From the NCBI RefSeq assembly GCF_018449525.1, contig NZ_JAAVUS010000003.1, positions 496,001 to 560,000 of the forward strand: a stretch of 64,000 bases of DNA, given 5' to 3'. The position numbers and the translations under genes were made by a program. Origin of the DNA: Bradyrhizobium sp. dw_78 (GTDB lineage Bacteria > Pseudomonadota > Alphaproteobacteria > Rhizobiales > Xanthobacteraceae). Below the pieces are notes generated by a model. The model had not been told where the DNA came from and did no database searches. It saw nothing but the letters and a program-made list of their open reading frames with translations. This document shows positions 31,605 through 37,165 of this stretch, one piece after another; position 1 is the first letter of the stretch, and every line of letters begins with the position of its first letter.

Positions 31605-33142
31605 TGAAGTTCAGAACGCTCAGGAATCTGGCGGCCGCGATCGGCTCTTCCGCCCTGCTGGCGGGTTGCATGGTGGGTCCCGATTTCGTCCAGCCTGATT
31701 CGCATCTTCCCGAAGCGACGTTCCAGGGCGACAAGGGCAAACCGGTCGCCGATTCGAAATTGCCGGCGCCGACCGATCCGATGTGGTGGCGGGTGTTTCG
31801 CGATCCGGTCCTGACCGGTCTCGAACGGCAGGTGGCGGCCGCCAATCTCGACGTCCGCACCGCGACGCTGCGCCTGGCCGAGAGCCGTTTCCAGCGCGGC
31901 GTGGCCGCCGCCGCCCAATTCCCGTCGTTCAACGGCGATGCGAAATATACCCGCGAGCTCTACAGCCAGAACGGCATCGTCAGCCTGCTCACGCCCTTGG
32001 CGCCTCCCGGTTTCAGTGTCGGCGCGATCAACGACTACAATACCGGCTTCGATGCGTCGTGGGAGATCGACCTCTGGGGCAGGGTCCGCCGGCAGGTCGA
32101 AGCCGCCGACGCCAGCGTCGATCAGGCCGCCGACCAGCGCCGCGACGCGCTGGTATCGAGTCTTGCCGAACTCGCCAGGGATTATATCCAGCTTCGCGGC
32201 GTGCAGACCCAGATCAGGATCGCCAACGACAATCTGAAGGTCGACCGCGATACGCTGGCGCTGGCGCAGGCGCGGCAGCAGCGCGGATTGCAGAACGGCC
32301 TCGATGTCGAGAACGCGGCGGCCCAGGTCGAAGCCGTGCGCGCGCAAATTCCGCAACTGCAACAGCAGGAATCCGAATATATCAACGCGCTCAGCTTCCT
32401 GCTGGACCAGCCGCCGGGCACGCTGCGTAGCGCGCTCGCGGCGCAGCCGTCGGTCCGTACCGGGCCGCCCCGCATTCCGCTCGGCATTCCCTCCGAACTG
32501 GCCCGCCGTCGTCCGGATATCCGGGCCGCGGAAGACCAGTTGCACGCGGCAACCGCGACCATCGGCGTCGCCGTCGGCGACTTTTATCCGAGCGTGCAGT
32601 TCAATGGCTCCGTGGGCTTCGATTCGCTCAATGTCAGCAATCTCTACAAGCCGCATTCGCTGCAATATAATTTCGGGCCTAGCGTGACGTTACCGATCTT
32701 CGCGGGTGGCCGGTTGCGCAACACGCTCGAATTGCGTGAGGCGCAGCAGCAGGAGGCAGCCATCGGCTATCGCAAGACCGTGCTGCAAGCCTGGCACGAG
32801 GTGGTCAATGCGCTGGTCGCGCACCGGCTGGAAATGAGCCGCCGTGAACGGCTGCATGCGCAGGCCGATCACGCGCGCGCCGCGCTGGACCTGGCCCGCG
32901 CGCGCTACAATGAGGGCGTCACCGAATTCCTGACCGTGCTCGATGCGGAGCGCACACTGTTGCAGGCCGATCAGCAATATGCCGCCAGCACCACCAGTGT
33001 CTCGCTCGACCTGGTGCAGTTGTTCAAGGCGCTGGGCGGCGGCTGGGAGACCGAATTCCCAGACGTGCCGTCGGAAACCACGGCCGCCGGAACCGTTCCG
33101 GTCGCCGCCTTCGAGGCCGCGACAGCGCCGGCGGCGCAGTAG
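31604..33142 (+). CDS. Outer-membrane efflux lipoprotein (NodT/OprM family)
   Basis: 512 residues from the ATG at 31604, which overlaps the preceding TGA. The signal peptide ends in a lipobox (LLAGC, residues ~18-22), so it is a lipoprotein. Two outer-membrane-factor repeats follow: DPMWWRVFRDPVLTGLERQV with NLDVRTATLRLAESRF, and later PSELARRRPDIRAAEDQLHA. A long helical barrel includes RARYNEGVTEFLTVLDAERT. It provides the exit duct for the EmrA/EmrB pair. The gene is followed directly by a truncated repeat and the foreign island. Confidence 0.92.
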   Translation: MKFRTLRNLAAAIGSSALLAGCMVGPDFVQPDSHLPEATFQGDKGKPVADSKLPAPTDPMWWRVFRDPVLTGLERQVAAANLDVRTATLRLAESRFQRGVAAAAQFPSFNGDAKYTRELYSQNGIVSLLTPLAPPGFSVGAINDYNTGFDASWEIDLWGRVRRQVEAADASVDQAADQRRDALVSSLAELARDYIQLRGVQTQIRIANDNLKVDRDTLALAQARQQRGLQNGLDVENAAAQVEAVRAQIPQLQQQESEYINALSFLLDQPPGTLRSALAAQPSVRTGPPRIPLGIPSELARRRPDIRAAEDQLHAATATIGVAVGDFYPSVQFNGSVGFDSLNVSNLYKPHSLQYNFGPSVTLPIFAGGRLRNTLELREAQQQEAAIGYRKTVLQAWHEVVNALVAHRLEMSRRERLHAQADHARAALDLARARYNEGVTEFLTVLDAERTLLQADQQYAASTTSVSLDLVQLFKALGGGWETEFPDVPSETTAAGTVPVAAFEAATAPAAQ

Positions 33143-33207
33143 AGCGTTTTCGAGTGGGAACAGTAGCCGCTAGCGCAGGCTAGCTAGAATGCGAAAGTGT
33201 CCTCGCA
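33143..33207. other. Left junction of the restriction-modification island
   Basis: Right after the efflux gene the sequence starts like a family-A repeat (AGAGCGTTTTCGAG) but breaks off at about 33156 into unrelated, A/T-richer sequence. That break is the likely left edge of the inserted segment. No copy of the tRNA-Thr 3' end was found here by eye. Confidence 0.5.
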
Positions 33208-33600
33208 CTAAGTCAGGAAACTGCGCACGGTCAAAGCCACGTGCTCGAGATCTTTGAGCTGACATTCCCAAACTGTCAGCACTTTCCATCCCAGCTGCTT
33301 AAGCTCGTCTTCGACCCGCGCATCTCTGACCTGGTTATTCAACAGTTTCTTTCCCCAATACTCCCGTCTCGATTTCGGCGCTCTCGCCGCGGGGCACCCG
33401 CCATGTGAATGCCAGAAGCATCCATGAACAAAGATCACGGACCGCCTGGATCTGAATACGAGGTCGGGGCGGCCGGGAAGGCCCTTGCCGTGAAGCCGAT
33501 AGCGATAGCCGAGTGAATGCACGAGCCTTCGGAGCGCAAGTTCTGGCCCGGTATCGCGAGAGCGAACTGCTCGCATTATCTCAGAGCGGTCCATCGTCAT
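33208..33600 (-). CDS. vsr: Very short patch repair endonuclease
   Basis: 130 residues from the ATG at 33600 (a second ATG is at 33594; GGAAG upstream). Vsr features are DRSEIMRAVRSRDTGPELAL, catalytic Asp46 in GLPGRPDLVF, and FVHGCFWHSHGGCPAARAPK with the zinc-binding His/Cys cluster. It nicks at T:G mismatches made when 5-methylcytosine deaminates, so it is the usual companion of a cytosine-5 methyltransferase; one is encoded 1.5 kb away. Codon use is more A/T-rich than the flanking chromosome. It is transcribed away from the 92-aa gene, with a 100-base gap. Confidence 0.93.
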   Translation of the reverse strand: MTMDRSEIMRAVRSRDTGPELALRRLVHSLGYRYRLHGKGLPGRPDLVFRSRRSVIFVHGCFWHSHGGCPAARAPKSRREYWGKKLLNNQVRDARVEDELKQLGWKVLTVWECQLKDLEHVALTVRSFLT

Positions 33601-33700
33601 CGAGCTTCCAAAGGCTGATAGGAGGGTCAAGCGCCGCAGGCGATTAACAACCCCCAATAACGTGCTTATAGTGACAGTCAATATTGGCTAGGAGCGTTGA

Positions 33701-33979
33701 ATGCTTTCTGAGGACTTTCGTGCATTTTTGCAAACCAAATTTCGGGGGGGCTCGTCAGGAAAGCCTCTCACGAGCAAAGCCGCCGGCGACGCCGTATCGC
33801 GCTGCAAAAAATATGAGCGGATTACCAGCTCCCGTTTACCGGAAAACCTGAACAATTCAATTAAGCTCGAACAGGCACTGCGTAAGCTCGATACGTACGA
33901 GCTGGAAACCTACAGCAAAACTGACATGCGAGCGGCCTTAAAGAAGTATTTTAAGTTTCTAAGCGCAACGTTCAAATGA
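33701..33979 (+). CDS. Hypothetical protein (92 aa) of the restriction island
   Basis: 92 residues, beginning MLSEDFRAFLQTKFRGGSSG. It is all-helical and basic, with SKAAGDAVSRCKKYERITSS in the first half and KTDMRAALKKYFKFLSATFK at the end. The arrangement faintly resembles the SAM-like core-binding domain of tyrosine recombinases, but no catalytic part is present. It is convergent with the putative restriction gene and overlaps its end by 8 bases, and is divergent from vsr. Roles as a control or accessory protein of the system are possible but unproven. Low GC supports acquisition with the island. Confidence 0.7.
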   Translation: MLSEDFRAFLQTKFRGGSSGKPLTSKAAGDAVSRCKKYERITSSRLPENLNNSIKLEQALRKLDTYELETYSKTDMRAALKKYFKFLSATFK

Positions 33980-35057
33980 CCTCCAGCATCTGGTGAATGC
34001 GGTGCTCGTCGCTCACGACGGGAAATTTATTAGCCAAGGCTTGGTAGGCTTCTGCGGAAACAATAATGGACGTCGCCTTTACTTCAAACACCCAGTCAGG
34101 GTTGGGGGTAGACGCGCTTGGCGGATTAGTCTCCAGAATTGCTTTACTCACGATCTCCGTATCAAGGCTTCCCAATTTATGCCGCAAAAACGAAGCCGTC
34201 ACATGCGTCAGCCAAATGCGATACTTGCCGGGGCTGAGCTCCTCTCCCTGCACGACGAAATGGCACAGATTTGGATCGTCAGGAGTAGGCACAGTGAAGT
34301 AGGGCTGGATCTTAGCTCCGGCCTCGGTGGTGATAGAAAACTCCTTCACCTTGGTCTTTGCGTTATAGACCCAAAGGTTCTTGCTCTTCTTCCTTGGGCC
34401 GCCTCCACCACTTTCGCTCCACTCGGCATAGTAGTCGGTCGGCTTTGGCTTCGACATTGGTTGCTCGAAGTAGAGAAAATCAACCAAACTCTCTTGCCAG
34501 AGAAACCACCCAATGCGCATGTCTGGCTCCCGCGCGGAATAGGCATCGGAGACCGGCTGGGGTTGCTCTGACAGACGCTTGGCGGCTACTTGAGGCTTCA
34601 TGTCGGGGAAGATTTGCAGGATACGCTTCACTGCCTGTTCGCGAGTGATCTGCTTATGATTGTACTCGTCGGCGATGCGCACGAGCGAGGTTCTCTCGTC
34701 GATGAGAGCCGCGTATTGCGCAAGAACATCTCTCGCTGCTTCGGTCGCATCCTTAACTGCGGGTATTCTGATAGAGCGCGTACCTGCCGGATGCATGATG
34801 CGAGTGCCACACGCCGACAATATGCTCTCCCTTGACCGTCGGCAGATCATCTTCTGCTCGACGCCGAGGTTGCCATGCGTCACATCGATATTGAGATTGC
34901 TCCAGCCCGCAGCGGGTATGCCTTTTGCGGCTGCGTACACCGCAGTCCAATCATTCTCCTCAAATTTCCGGCCCATCATCGTAGCGACTTGGGCTGCAAG
35001 ATACTTATGAGCTTTTACAAACTCATCTTTTGAGAAAACCGGGAGGGTATCAGGCAT
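33972..35057 (-). CDS. Probable type II restriction endonuclease (unrecognised family)
   Basis: 361 residues. I do not recognise a named family. NIDVTHGNLGVEQK carries an Asp58-x8-Glu67-x-Lys69 pattern like the PD-(D/E)xK nuclease active site. The middle contains IGWFLWQESLVDFLYFEQPM and a Lys-rich GGGGPRKKSKNLWV. A second FEVKATS occurs near the end. Its start overlaps the methyltransferase stop by 8 bases, the tight coupling expected of a restriction enzyme and its protecting methylase. Endonuclease function is inferred from that context and the motif, not from homology. Confidence 0.65.
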   Translation of the reverse strand: MPDTLPVFSKDEFVKAHKYLAAQVATMMGRKFEENDWTAVYAAAKGIPAAGWSNLNIDVTHGNLGVEQKMICRRSRESILSACGTRIMHPAGTRSIRIPAVKDATEAARDVLAQYAALIDERTSLVRIADEYNHKQITREQAVKRILQIFPDMKPQVAAKRLSEQPQPVSDAYSAREPDMRIGWFLWQESLVDFLYFEQPMSKPKPTDYYAEWSESGGGGPRKKSKNLWVYNAKTKVKEFSITTEAGAKIQPYFTVPTPDDPNLCHFVVQGEELSPGKYRIWLTHVTASFLRHKLGSLDTEIVSKAILETNPPSASTPNPDWVFEVKATSIIVSAEAYQALANKFPVVSDEHRIHQMLEVI

Positions 35058-36420
35058 ATTTCAGCTCCGGCAGAGGACTAACCTCAATTCCCATGGCTCG
35101 CGCGATAGCTTCACCTACGGCCTTCGCAAGTACAGGAGGTACGGCGTTGCCGATCTGAAACGCTCTCTCCATTCTTGTGCCAGCCAGGTACCAAGTATCG
35201 GGAAAGGTCTGCAATGCCAGCAACTCGTCGTCTGTAAGGTACTCGTGCTCGACAAAGACCGGAGGCGTATCGCCTTGACGGCGACCTTGGGTGTGCCACT
35301 GTTGACGCGCCAGCTGTTCAGGAGGCACTCCTAGAGGGGCGATCGCAAGTTTCGCGGATTGATGAGCGCCAACAGTAGGAGCAATCCGGTCAAGCGGCCA
35401 TGTGACTGGTTCATCGTGTGGCCTAACCACATTCTTGACCCAAAGAACGGCTGTCCTCTCGTTCAGCTTGCCGTACTGCCAGTGGCCGCCCTTCCATAGG
35501 GTGTCCTTAACCGTGGCCCACGGAAGGAGCTTGCTTGCAAATAGCTGAAGTTGGCTCTTTGGCGCCTGACTATGTGTTGGCTCAGGCCAGGAAAACGCCT
35601 CCCCATCTCGCGAGCCGACGATGAATATTCGTTCTCTGCTCTGTGGGGCGCCAAAATCCGCTGCATTCAGCAACTTGAATTTGCATGAGTAGCCGATACG
35701 CTCGAACTCGTTGAGAATGATCTCTAGCGATCCCCCCCGCACGGCGCGGCTCTCAAATTTCAGCGCCCCTCCACACTGCGAGCACTTTCCTAAGTCGCCC
35801 GCTTGTGTTCCTCTTAACTCGAAAGGCAAAAGCGTTAACGCACTGCACTTCGCGCAGCGGCTCGCCTCAACATCAGTCGAAGTCTGAGCTAGGCCCTTTA
35901 CATTCTCAAACAAGAACCATCGCGGCCGAATTTCGTCTACGAGCCTTACAAACTCCAAAAACAAACGCCCATCGTCCACGGTCACAGTTTCACGCTTGCC
36001 GGATCTTGAGAACGGCTGACACGGCGGACCGCCAGCCATCAGATCTAACTCTCCTCTTTTGATCGCGGCTTGGGACAGAACTCGATCCTTTGAGAGCTGC
36101 CTGACGTCGCCTTCAGCAATGACCGCATCGACGAGGAAATCATCTCTGGCTTCCCAAGCGCGTTTGCCTCTCGCAAGGAGGGTCGAGTGAGCATTAGGGG
36201 AAATTCTCTGATGGCACCGTTTCTCTAGCTCCAATGCAAACCAATGATCGAAGTTTATGTCCCGCGACCTGAGAGAGCGATTGATGCGAAGGGTTTCACA
36301 TGCGTGGGGCGCAAATTCGCTAGCAAGCACGGTCCGAAAACCAGCCTGCTCAAGACCGATGTCCAGCCCCCCCGCGCCTGCAAACAGCGAAACCAGTGAC
36401 GGTCGATTTCCCCCTGCCAT
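35050..36420 (-). CDS. DNA cytosine-5 methyltransferase
   Basis: 456 residues with the m5C motifs in order. These are motif I SLFAGAGGLDIGLEQAGF (9-28), the catalytic PCQ with Cys134 in GGPPCQPFSRSGKRE, ENV in FLFENVKGL (171-178), QSRERIFIVGS (260-270), and motif X FQIGNAVPPVLAKAVGEAIA near the end. Between the ENV and QxRxR motifs there is an insertion with C189-x2-C192 and C213-x2-C216, which looks like a zinc ribbon. The target domain (~275-400) defines an unknown recognition site. The gene is cotranscribed with the putative nuclease. GC is lower than in the flanks. Confidence 0.93.
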   Translation of the reverse strand: MAGGNRPSLVSLFAGAGGLDIGLEQAGFRTVLASEFAPHACETLRINRSLRSRDINFDHWFALELEKRCHQRISPNAHSTLLARGKRAWEARDDFLVDAVIAEGDVRQLSKDRVLSQAAIKRGELDLMAGGPPCQPFSRSGKRETVTVDDGRLFLEFVRLVDEIRPRWFLFENVKGLAQTSTDVEASRCAKCSALTLLPFELRGTQAGDLGKCSQCGGALKFESRAVRGGSLEIILNEFERIGYSCKFKLLNAADFGAPQSRERIFIVGSRDGEAFSWPEPTHSQAPKSQLQLFASKLLPWATVKDTLWKGGHWQYGKLNERTAVLWVKNVVRPHDEPVTWPLDRIAPTVGAHQSAKLAIAPLGVPPEQLARQQWHTQGRRQGDTPPVFVEHEYLTDDELLALQTFPDTWYLAGTRMERAFQIGNAVPPVLAKAVGEAIARAMGIEVSPLPELKYA

Positions 36421-36439
36421 CAGTGACTTCTTTCTCGCA

Positions 36440-37009
36440 TCAAACGCAAATTAGTGAACATAGACGATTAACGGGTCGAACGGGGCTTATCCAGTAAAGC
36501 ATCAGAGCTGCCCACAGGCGTGATTGCCAATCCCATATCCAAAAACACGTATAAGTAGCGACAGGCCAAAGAATGGTAGGGGCGCCAGCTTTCAGAAAGC
36601 GGTCGATAGCCCCGAGGCCAAATTTTCCTTGCTGTGCGAGGCGGTTCTGTCGAGCGACCGCCAGCCAGCTCTCTTTTGTCAGGCCGGGGGTGTCCTCGAA
36701 TCCCTGTGCGAAAGTGCGGTGGAGGATGCCCAACAACGCCGCCACTTGCTTGGCTGTCAGCGGCTTTGGCCTGTCTCGCAAAGCCCTGAGCTGCCGTTCG
36801 ACCTCTGCGGCGACCTCCGTATATTTCGCCTTGGCGGGTGTCCGGTCAGCGGTGCGAAGCGAGATGCTGATGTGGGTCTTGTACCAGCCAGGTGGCCGTC
36901 GCCCTTTGGGGAGCTTTTCTAGGATGGCCCTAACATCTGCCGGGATCGTGCGGTAATACCAATTGTCGGTGCCTTCTCTTTTGCTCGGGGAAGCCATTCT
37001 CAAAACCAT
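36440..37009 (-). pseudogene. Truncated tyrosine-type integrase (N-terminal part only)
   Basis: About 189 residues from the ATG at 37009. The N-terminus (ASPSKREGTDNWYYRTIPAD, then HISISLRTADRTPAKAKYTE) matches the arm-binding region that begins many island integrases. A helical stretch (LTKESWLAVARQNRLAQQGK) continues. From roughly residue 140 the sequence becomes Trp-rich and unlike an integrase, and the R-H-R-Y catalytic domain is absent. This indicates a deletion or frameshift. The position immediately next to the tRNA-Thr 3' end is the standard site for such a gene and explains how the island arrived. Confidence 0.65.
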
Positions 37010-37090
37010 AGATGCAGCATCCCTGTGTATCAGGGAGCGGCCCGAAAACCACAAGCCTTTCAATAGGCTATTGATATTTCAAGAAAAAAA

Positions 37091-37165
37091 TGGTGCTGCC
37101 AGACAGGATTGAACTGTCGACCTCTCCATTACCAATGGAGTGCTCTACCACTGAGCTACGGCAGC
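37091..37165 (-). tRNA. tRNA-Thr (anticodon GGU)
   Basis: On the minus strand GCTGCCG...TGGCAGC forms the acceptor stem, and CTCCA-TTGGTAA-TGGAG the anticodon stem-loop with anticodon GGT (reads ACC). GTTCAATC is in the T-loop, and CCA is encoded. Its 3' end abuts the integrase fragment, so it is the likely attachment site of the restriction island. The short palindrome CAATAG-g-CTATTG lies 18 bases beyond the 3' end. Confidence 0.95.

Follow-up and report, generated by a model that had tools for sequence, protein, structure and literature searches.

An island of about 4 kb beside a tRNA-Thr gene probably encodes a type II restriction-modification system consisting of an m5C DNA methyltransferase (MTase), a 361-aa cutter and the mismatch endonuclease Vsr, and the family of the cutter appears to have exchanged its MTase partner in the course of its history. 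We assign this reading a rough probability of 0.82. The island lies in a window of 64 kb, by which we mean the whole stretch of DNA analysed. The m5C MTase would mark a fixed site on the host DNA, and the 361-aa protein would cut this site where the mark is missing. Cutting would be carried out by a PD-(D/E)xK-type core (residues about 1-270), to which a single-chain tandem ribbon-helix-helix (RHH) domain (residues 278-361) may add DNA binding. The gene for Vsr lies downstream in the same orientation, and its product would mend T:G mismatches left by deamination of 5-methylcytosine. The usual partner of the family, a zinc-ribbon amino-MTase, is predicted to methylate the exocyclic amino group of adenine or cytosine; amino-MTase and m5C MTase may have been exchanged for one another while the site was presumably kept. 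Homology, gene neighbourhood, the catalytic signature, predicted folds and a conflict in the endonuclease tree form the computed basis of this reading, in which cutting and methylation are predicted. The features concerned are the following:

33200..37066 (edges approximate), no strand: low-G+C acquired island from the efflux gene to tRNA-Thr, based on G+C and gene content of relatives
33208..33681, minus strand: Vsr mismatch endonuclease, likely start ATG 33600 or 33594 (TIGR00632 140.9 bits, cut-off 97.85; PF03852 95.6 bits)
33701..33979, plus strand: 92-aa orphan ORF of no credible family, convergent with the endonuclease gene and overlapping its end
33972..35057, minus strand: 361-aa protein of an unnamed family, predicted to be a type II restriction endonuclease from homologues, MTase neighbours and the model
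33975..34226, minus strand: C-terminal tandem RHH domain of the endonuclease, residues 278-361, predicted strand-helix-helix twice
34527..34658, minus strand: helical insert of the endonuclease, based on alignments; model helices 139-149 and 155-160
34851..34958, minus strand: signature of the predicted active site of the endonuclease, E34, D58 and E67-x-K69, based on a 40-row alignment
35050..36420, minus strand: m5C DNA methyltransferase, 456 aa (PF00145 201.5 bits; TIGR00675 177.9 bits, cut-off 100.65)
36440..37063, minus strand: N-terminal integrase remnant, 207 aa (PF20172 DUF6538 34.7 bits, cut-off 27)
37091..37165, minus strand: tRNA-Thr (ggt), with the island on its 3' side (ARAGORN)

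An island next to tRNA-Thr

The G+C content at 33200-37060 is 54.8% compared to 63.3% in the left and 64.0% in the right flank, and the lowest-G+C tile of the window (3,860-base tiles, step 250) starts at 33251. In the presence/absence comparison proposed by an earlier sequence-only reading of the window, the 361-aa gene was missing from all 35 same-genus genomes examined; the tRNA-Thr stretch, sought separately, was present in 22 of 22 such genomes. A relative with a close match to the efflux gene (85% identity) carries about 3 kb of different genes between this gene and tRNA-Thr. Based on the low G+C content, the absence of the 361-aa gene from the same genus and the other genes in this relative, we regard the island as acquired. 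At the far edge of the island, a search for an att-like direct repeat matching the 3' end of tRNA-Thr was negative.

The sequence-only reading had described an A/T-richer block of about 4 kb between the efflux gene and tRNA-Thr, holding a truncated integrase, the m5C MTase, the 361-aa and 92-aa ORFs and Vsr, and both the G+C drop and the gene positions agree with this description. Its overall proposal, a horizontally acquired type II system with an unrecognised nuclease and Vsr, is supported as well, in each case by computation. The integrase is indeed broken: only PF20172 passed its cut-off, which leaves an N-terminal fragment, and no Pfam match to the catalytic domain was obtained. DUF6538 marks the N-termini of tyrosine integrases. 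Among 384 other genomes of the class sample, none had a homologue of the 92-aa ORF; the sole partial match, on a plasmid, spans 38 residues (E 0.004), and the product of the ORF has no evident role.

The 361-aa protein and its relatives

Searches of Pfam, NCBIfam, PADLOC, PHROGs and PDB sequences with the 361-aa protein gave matches at E 0.1 or worse only. Profiles of 3 and of 40 homologues returned no credible PDB match, those to ArfB and VP8* being short and in unrelated proteins, and neither SfiI nor BglI was among the PDB-sequence matches at E <= 10 with the single sequence or the 40-row profile. When the genome collection was scanned with the single sequence, no relative was recovered; a 3-row profile search of this collection revealed 48 bacterial loci with homologues (not including L052, a duplicate of L038). 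Further homologues occurred on one plasmid and in one jumbo phage. In many phyla, the homologues adjoin DNA MTases. As the sequence-only reading had held, the putative nuclease was unrecognised, and it matches no family in the libraries searched, but its own family is not peculiar to the island. The 40-row alignment comprises the window protein and those of 39 of the 48 loci; the split or truncated proteins of L006, L012, L041, L046, L047, L048, L049 and L050 were excluded, as was, inadvertently, the intact one of L027. According to the alignments, a helical insert at about residues 134-177 is confined to the subclade of the window, L004, L005 and the plasmid copy L002.

The homologues also bear on the possibility of a decaying island, with genes that are still open and a system that no longer works in the host. 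The integrase is truncated, a frameshift splits the homologue on plasmid pGX1, and the homologues in L049 and L006 are fragmented, as would be expected of decay. The MTase, the endonuclease and Vsr, however, are ORFs of normal length with conserved motifs, and an endonuclease without selection would be expected to break. We therefore consider a remnant unlikely.

The AlphaFold model of the 361-aa protein has a pLDDT of 92.2 and a pTM of 0.89. Invariant in all 40 rows of the alignment are G29-R30-K31, E33, E34, D36, W37, E67, K69 and H89-P90, and D58 is kept in at least 90% of the rows; the family conserves the acidic residues of the PD-(D/E)xK superfamily and the lysine of its D/E-x-K motif. 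Among 993 chains aligned to the model, the top two were the restriction endonucleases SfiI (2ezv_B; Z 5.8, rmsd 4.9, 157 aligned) and DpnI (4kyw_A; Z 5.8, rmsd 4.2, 135 aligned), where all Z scores are below 8 and may, according to the tool, reflect a common arrangement. Foldseek with the whole model gave no match in the PDB at E <= 0.001 and one in a viral library, where the protein matched is 270 aa long, uncharacterised and from an uncultured tailed phage (E 1e-6; TM 0.38 and 0.48, rmsd 11); absence from these structure-search outputs does not exclude BglI or other restriction and RHH families. Taken together, the MTase neighbours, one fusion to an MTase, the conserved signature and, at a modest Z, the top two structural matches make a type II restriction endonuclease from an unnamed family the most likely identity of the protein.

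At the C-terminus, strand-helix-helix was predicted twice in one chain, both in the whole-protein model and in a model of the domain alone. When 541 chains were aligned to the latter, ranks 1-8 were occupied by TraY (six entries, confirmed by sequence) and then DndE (two entries). TraY of the F plasmid reached Z 4.6-5.2 (80-90 aligned of 98) and DndE Z 3.0 and 2.7, followed by KH domains and others (Z 2.5) and VirC2 (Z 2.4). Two RHH units in one chain are described for TraY and DndE in excerpts of PMC12117103 and PMC10853773. With the domain alone, Foldseek found nothing in the PDB at E <= 0.001. None of the 40 members matched a Pfam RHH family with HMMER filters that drop weak matches, and profile alignment of the two units showed no significant sequence repeat (E 0.22).

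RHH proteins are often repressors, and the predicted tandem domain would also suit a DNA-binding regulator of the MTase operon, which would bind the promoter and not cut. We regard this as very unlikely, as a repressor would not need a large N-terminal domain with invariant E33, E34, E67 and K69, the best structural matches of this domain are SfiI and DpnI, and the gene mostly follows the MTase gene instead of preceding it. Even less probable is a modification-dependent enzyme like DpnI, which cuts methylated DNA and shares the top structural rank with SfiI where the catalytic part is concerned: such an enzyme would attack the DNA methylated by the MTase of its own operon, SfiI matches equally well, and the 361-aa protein has, unlike DpnI, an adjacent MTase gene and an RHH-like C-terminus in place of a winged helix.

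Methyltransferase partners and Vsr

For a type II endonuclease, the reading that we prefer, the partner in the window is the m5C MTase. It carries PPCQPF, ENV, QSRER and GNAVPP motifs, the first two and the last of which align with homologues, and its target-recognition stretch is conserved among these. A zinc-ribbon-like CxxC...CxxC insert at residues 189-216 was found in 9/9 homologues covering that stretch. The best PDB match, M.HaeIII, aligned in the shared motifs only, and since the target-recognition domain of M.HaeIII lies between them, this alignment does not allow the recognition site to be inferred. The MTase and 361-aa genes, both on the minus strand, overlap by 8 bases (35050-36420 and 33972-35057), as had been pointed out before, which suggests that the two are probably translated together.

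An MTase gene was present in the locus stretch of 45 of the 48 genome loci, and L041, L046 and L048 end at a contig edge. The partner was a zinc-ribbon amino-MTase in 36 loci and an m5C MTase in 9. The type II pairing proposed from the sequence thus stands in that an MTase adjoins the nuclease, but the commoner partner in the family is the amino-MTase and not the m5C enzyme. In the 39 loci with an aligned endonuclease, with starts as set in the analysis, the MTase gene shares 4 bases with the start of the endonuclease gene in 15, and in another 21 the two are at most 26 bases apart; in L010, both are fused into one 947-aa protein. No MTase lies directly upstream of the listed endonuclease copy in L005 and L051. 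This copy of L005 is full-length, and a second, truncated copy adjoins an m5C MTase. The jumbo phage has the nuclease and no detectable MTase, which indicates that members of the family do not always go with a modification enzyme.

A single clade of all m5C-paired endonucleases was rejected in a 41-row tree (p-AU 0.0067) and in a 37-row tree without long branches (p-AU 0.0012), the plasmid copy L002 being left out of the endonuclease tree. The starred branches force one partner change in the former and two in the latter. Likewise, the window endonuclease is 55.5% identical to that of the amino-paired L032 and 45.3% to that of the m5C-paired L035, the MTase of which is 59.1% identical to the window MTase. 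The rejection of a single m5C-paired clade indicates that the partners have been swapped.

Vsr enzymes repair T:G mismatches left by deaminated 5-methylcytosines. The Vsr gene follows the endonuclease gene in two other loci, both of the m5C kind, and L013 repeats the order MTase-endonuclease-Vsr, which supports the role of Vsr as a repair partner put forward in the sequence-only reading. Counting the window and the plasmid, Vsr occurred in 3/11 m5C loci and in 0/36 amino loci (Fisher p 0.010). Without the window, where the idea originated, the counts are 2/10 and 0/36 (p about 0.04, calculated by hand); several contigs of both partner kinds end less than 1 kb past the endonuclease. Vsr homologues also occur in other related genomes (23 of 59), which weakens the idea that Vsr is a private part of the window system.

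Relation to known systems

SfiI, a type IIF enzyme related to BglI, resembles the 361-aa protein in its structural match (Z 5.8, tied best) and in an active site of E, D and D/E-x-K. Its predicted E55 and D79, as given in an excerpt of PMC548270, have the same spacing as E34 and D58. The gap from D to E differs, with 8 residues here and 20 in SfiI; moreover, the match stops at model residue 269, short of the RHH domain, and no sequence similarity to SfiI was found. NruI/Sbo13I were considered as members of the same family and dropped by eye, as the N-terminal NruI peptide in an excerpt of PMC2890505 is dissimilar. TraY and DndE share with the C-terminal domain two strand-helix-helix units per chain, but they are DNA-binding proteins that, judging also by their lengths, lack this nuclease core, whereas the 361-aa protein joins an RHH pair to an endonuclease-like core. 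Other m5C restriction-modification systems with a Vsr gene likewise combine m5C MTase and Vsr in one cluster; here, however, the endonuclease is of an unnamed family, the members of which are more often paired with an amino-MTase.

In the literature searched, we found no description of a restriction endonuclease with an RHH domain or of a swap between m5C and amino-MTase partners of such an enzyme. We lean slightly towards a family outside the libraries searched, in which an SfiI-like core is joined to a single-chain RHH domain, the target has been kept while the MTase was replaced at least twice by a non-homologous one (exocyclic amino versus cytosine C5), and Vsr joins only the version that generates T:G mismatches. 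If it cuts as predicted, the protein would extend a well-studied class of enzymes by an architecture of nuclease core and tandem RHH. If correct, the partner exchange would offer a natural comparison of one endonuclease guarded by two unrelated chemistries, and one could test how such systems change their modification enzyme while the host survives, and whether the choice of 5-methylcytosine comes at the price of a mismatch-repair partner such as Vsr. According to an excerpt of PMC13092281, PD-(D/E)XK and RHH are among the three commonest domain families in uncharacterised predicted defence clusters of E. coli.

Island layout and acquisition

The most economical reading of the island is a putative type II restriction-modification system whose predicted endonuclease belongs to a family outside the libraries searched. 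The island has a G+C content of 54.8% versus 63-64% in its flanks, and the minimum of the window (3,860-base tiles, step 250) falls in the tile starting at 33251.

Features of the island and its boundaries
37091-37165: tRNA-Thr; island boundary opposite the efflux gene
36440-37063, minus strand: integrase remnant; first in transcription order, N-terminal domain alone over the cut-off
35050-36420, minus strand: cytosine-C5 (m5C) methyltransferase; second in order, over the curated cut-offs
33972-35057, minus strand: gene of the 361-aa predicted endonuclease; third in order, 8-base overlap with the methyltransferase gene
33701-33979, plus strand: 92-aa ORF; opposes the minus-strand genes
33208-33681, minus strand: Vsr; last in order, over the curated cut-off
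End at 33142: efflux gene; island boundary on this side

Neither the 361-aa nor the 92-aa protein gave a credible match in the family libraries, the top match of the latter being a PHROG at E 0.037. The m5C methyltransferase bears a CxxC...CxxC insert between its ENV and QSRER motifs (35773-35856, minus strand), which also occurs in all nine homologues covering that stretch and, to our knowledge, is unusual in small m5C methyltransferases.

Comparison with other genomes indicates that the island was acquired and is not ancestral. The endonuclease gene is single-copy in its own genome and was found in none of 35 same-genus and 24 more distant relatives, nor in any of 384 other genomes sampled from the same class. 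The tRNA-Thr stretch was present in 22 of 22 same-genus genomes in a separate search. Only one relative, G015, matches the efflux gene closely (85% identity), and there about 3 kb of other genes separate this gene from the tRNA. A flanking repeat was looked for at the island, and none was found.

Predicted structure of the endonuclease

The case for a nuclease rests on how a modest structural match fits both a conserved signature and the gene neighbourhood. The AlphaFold model, built on a 40-row alignment, reached a pLDDT of 92.2 and a pTM of 0.89. In a second-look structural alignment, SfiI and DpnI came out on top with a modest Z of 5.8 each, followed by TraY chains (Z 4.5-5.0) and then a row at Z 3.3; for all values below 8, the tool warns that they possibly reflect just a common arrangement. 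Within the 40-row alignment, E33, E34, E67 and K69 never vary, and at least 90% of the rows keep D58. The resulting E34-D58-E67-x-K69 parallels E55-D79-D100-x-K102, the residues predicted for SfiI in PMC548270.

When modelled alone, the C-terminal 98 residues retained two strand-helix-helix units (pLDDT 82.3). The best matches of this domain were six PDB entries of TraY (Z 4.6-5.2), whose identity was checked by sequence (18 chains across the six entries have the TraY sequence), and then DndE in two (Z 3.0 and 2.7); KH domains and others (Z 2.5) and VirC2 (Z 2.4) followed. According to published descriptions, TraY is a ribbon-helix-helix (RHH) dimer within one polypeptide (PMC12117103) and DndE consists of two RHH repeats (PMC10853773).

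None of the papers found in literature searches describes the endonuclease family. As REBASE often names putative enzymes from gene neighbourhood and was outside that comparison, the novelty of the family is relative to the resources used.

Family distribution and methyltransferase partners

A tblastn search yielded two homologues, one on a plasmid (Komagataeibacter pGX1, broken by a frameshift) and the other in a phage (Sinorhizobium jumbo phage Phosso). A profile of these two and the window protein recovered 48 loci from 84,980 species genomes, a lower bound because the scan relied on two short peptide patterns. The same profile found one viral contig, L052, which was left uncounted because its gene order and alignment scores equal those of locus L038. 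Among the hosts given in the records are Pseudomonadota, Chloroflexota, Acidobacteriota, Ignavibacteriota, Verrucomicrobiota, Bacillota, Nitrospirota, Bacteroidota, Myxococcota and a cyanobacterium. pGX1 is a 5.5-kb mobilizable plasmid with seven annotated genes that bears the m5C methyltransferase-endonuclease pair, with the endonuclease in two overlapping frames (L002:3112-4312). The endonuclease and a zinc-ribbon amino-methyltransferase also occur together in L027, whose record bears the title Escherichia coli strain E69. Its endonuclease DNA matched none of the collected complete E. coli genomes, and its accession is absent from the annotated collections; the record may be misnamed.

A relative of the amino-methyltransferase of locus L008 was found in 36 of the 48 loci and a relative of the window m5C enzyme in nine; in the other three (L041, L046, L048) the contig stops at the endonuclease. 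Among 39 loci with an aligned endonuclease, the methyltransferase gene shares 4 bases with the start of the endonuclease gene in 15, and in a further 21 the distance is within 26 bases. The remaining three are Nostoc L010, where both are fused into a single 947-aa protein, L051, where the methyltransferase is convergent with the endonuclease, and L005. Two endonuclease copies share the L005 contig (L005:3-7092): a truncated one adjoining an m5C methyltransferase, by which the locus was scored as m5C, and a full-length one at a distance of about 4 kb, past a transposase-like gene. The 323-aa ORF ahead of the full-length copy matches no Pfam family.

All six amino-methyltransferases scanned exceeded the PF01555 cut-off. 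Among 38 ORFs, the full-length ones have three CxxC each (four in L037) and DPFxGSG ahead of DPPFGxNINY, except, by the pattern used, L033 and L040. HTH_3 near the N-terminus passed the Pfam cut-off in two of the six (L043, L051), with L027 just under it, and may represent a built-in expression controller.

On the endonuclease tree (41 rows), the m5C label needs three changes, one of them forced by the starred branches alone, and a single clade of the nine m5C-paired rows was rejected (p-AU 0.0067). Without the long-branched L044, L045, L051 and L003 (Phosso), the same constraint gave a p-AU of 0.0012 and the starred branches forced two changes; here, the window falls in a 99/98 clade of 14 amino-paired and four m5C-paired rows. 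Pairwise identities agree with the tree in pointing to partner exchange: the window endonuclease is 55.5% identical to that of amino-paired L032 versus 45.3% to that of m5C-paired L035, with whose methyltransferase the window enzyme shares 59.1% identity. The m5C methyltransferases of different phyla are highly conserved in the sequence surrounding their target-recognition region, which is consistent with one shared site.

Vsr and compact family members

A Vsr gene adjoining the endonuclease was found in three loci, all with the m5C enzyme: the window, L013 and L049, where it is a partial ORF. It occurs in 3 of 11 m5C loci (nine genome loci, the window and the plasmid) versus 0 of 36 amino loci (Fisher p 0.010), or 2 of 10 versus 0 of 36 without the window (about p 0.04, by hand arithmetic); as the loci have a common ancestry and some contigs of either kind are short, this association is suggestive. 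Homologues of Vsr were found in 23 of the 59 other related genomes as well.

In the 469-kb phage Phosso, a compact member lies between tRNA-Ile and tRNA-Arg genes (L003:2005-2805), and the phage genome gave no PF01555 or PF00145 match, that is, neither methyltransferase family. The Phosso protein and the second compact member, from Rhodovulum (L051), are 53% identical. Both align only as far as the first RHH unit, which suggests that compact members may dimerise to complete the RHH domain. The only match at E <= 0.001 in a viral structure library was A0A6J5LH57, an uncharacterised 270-aa protein of an uncultured tailed phage, whose length is in line with the compact members.
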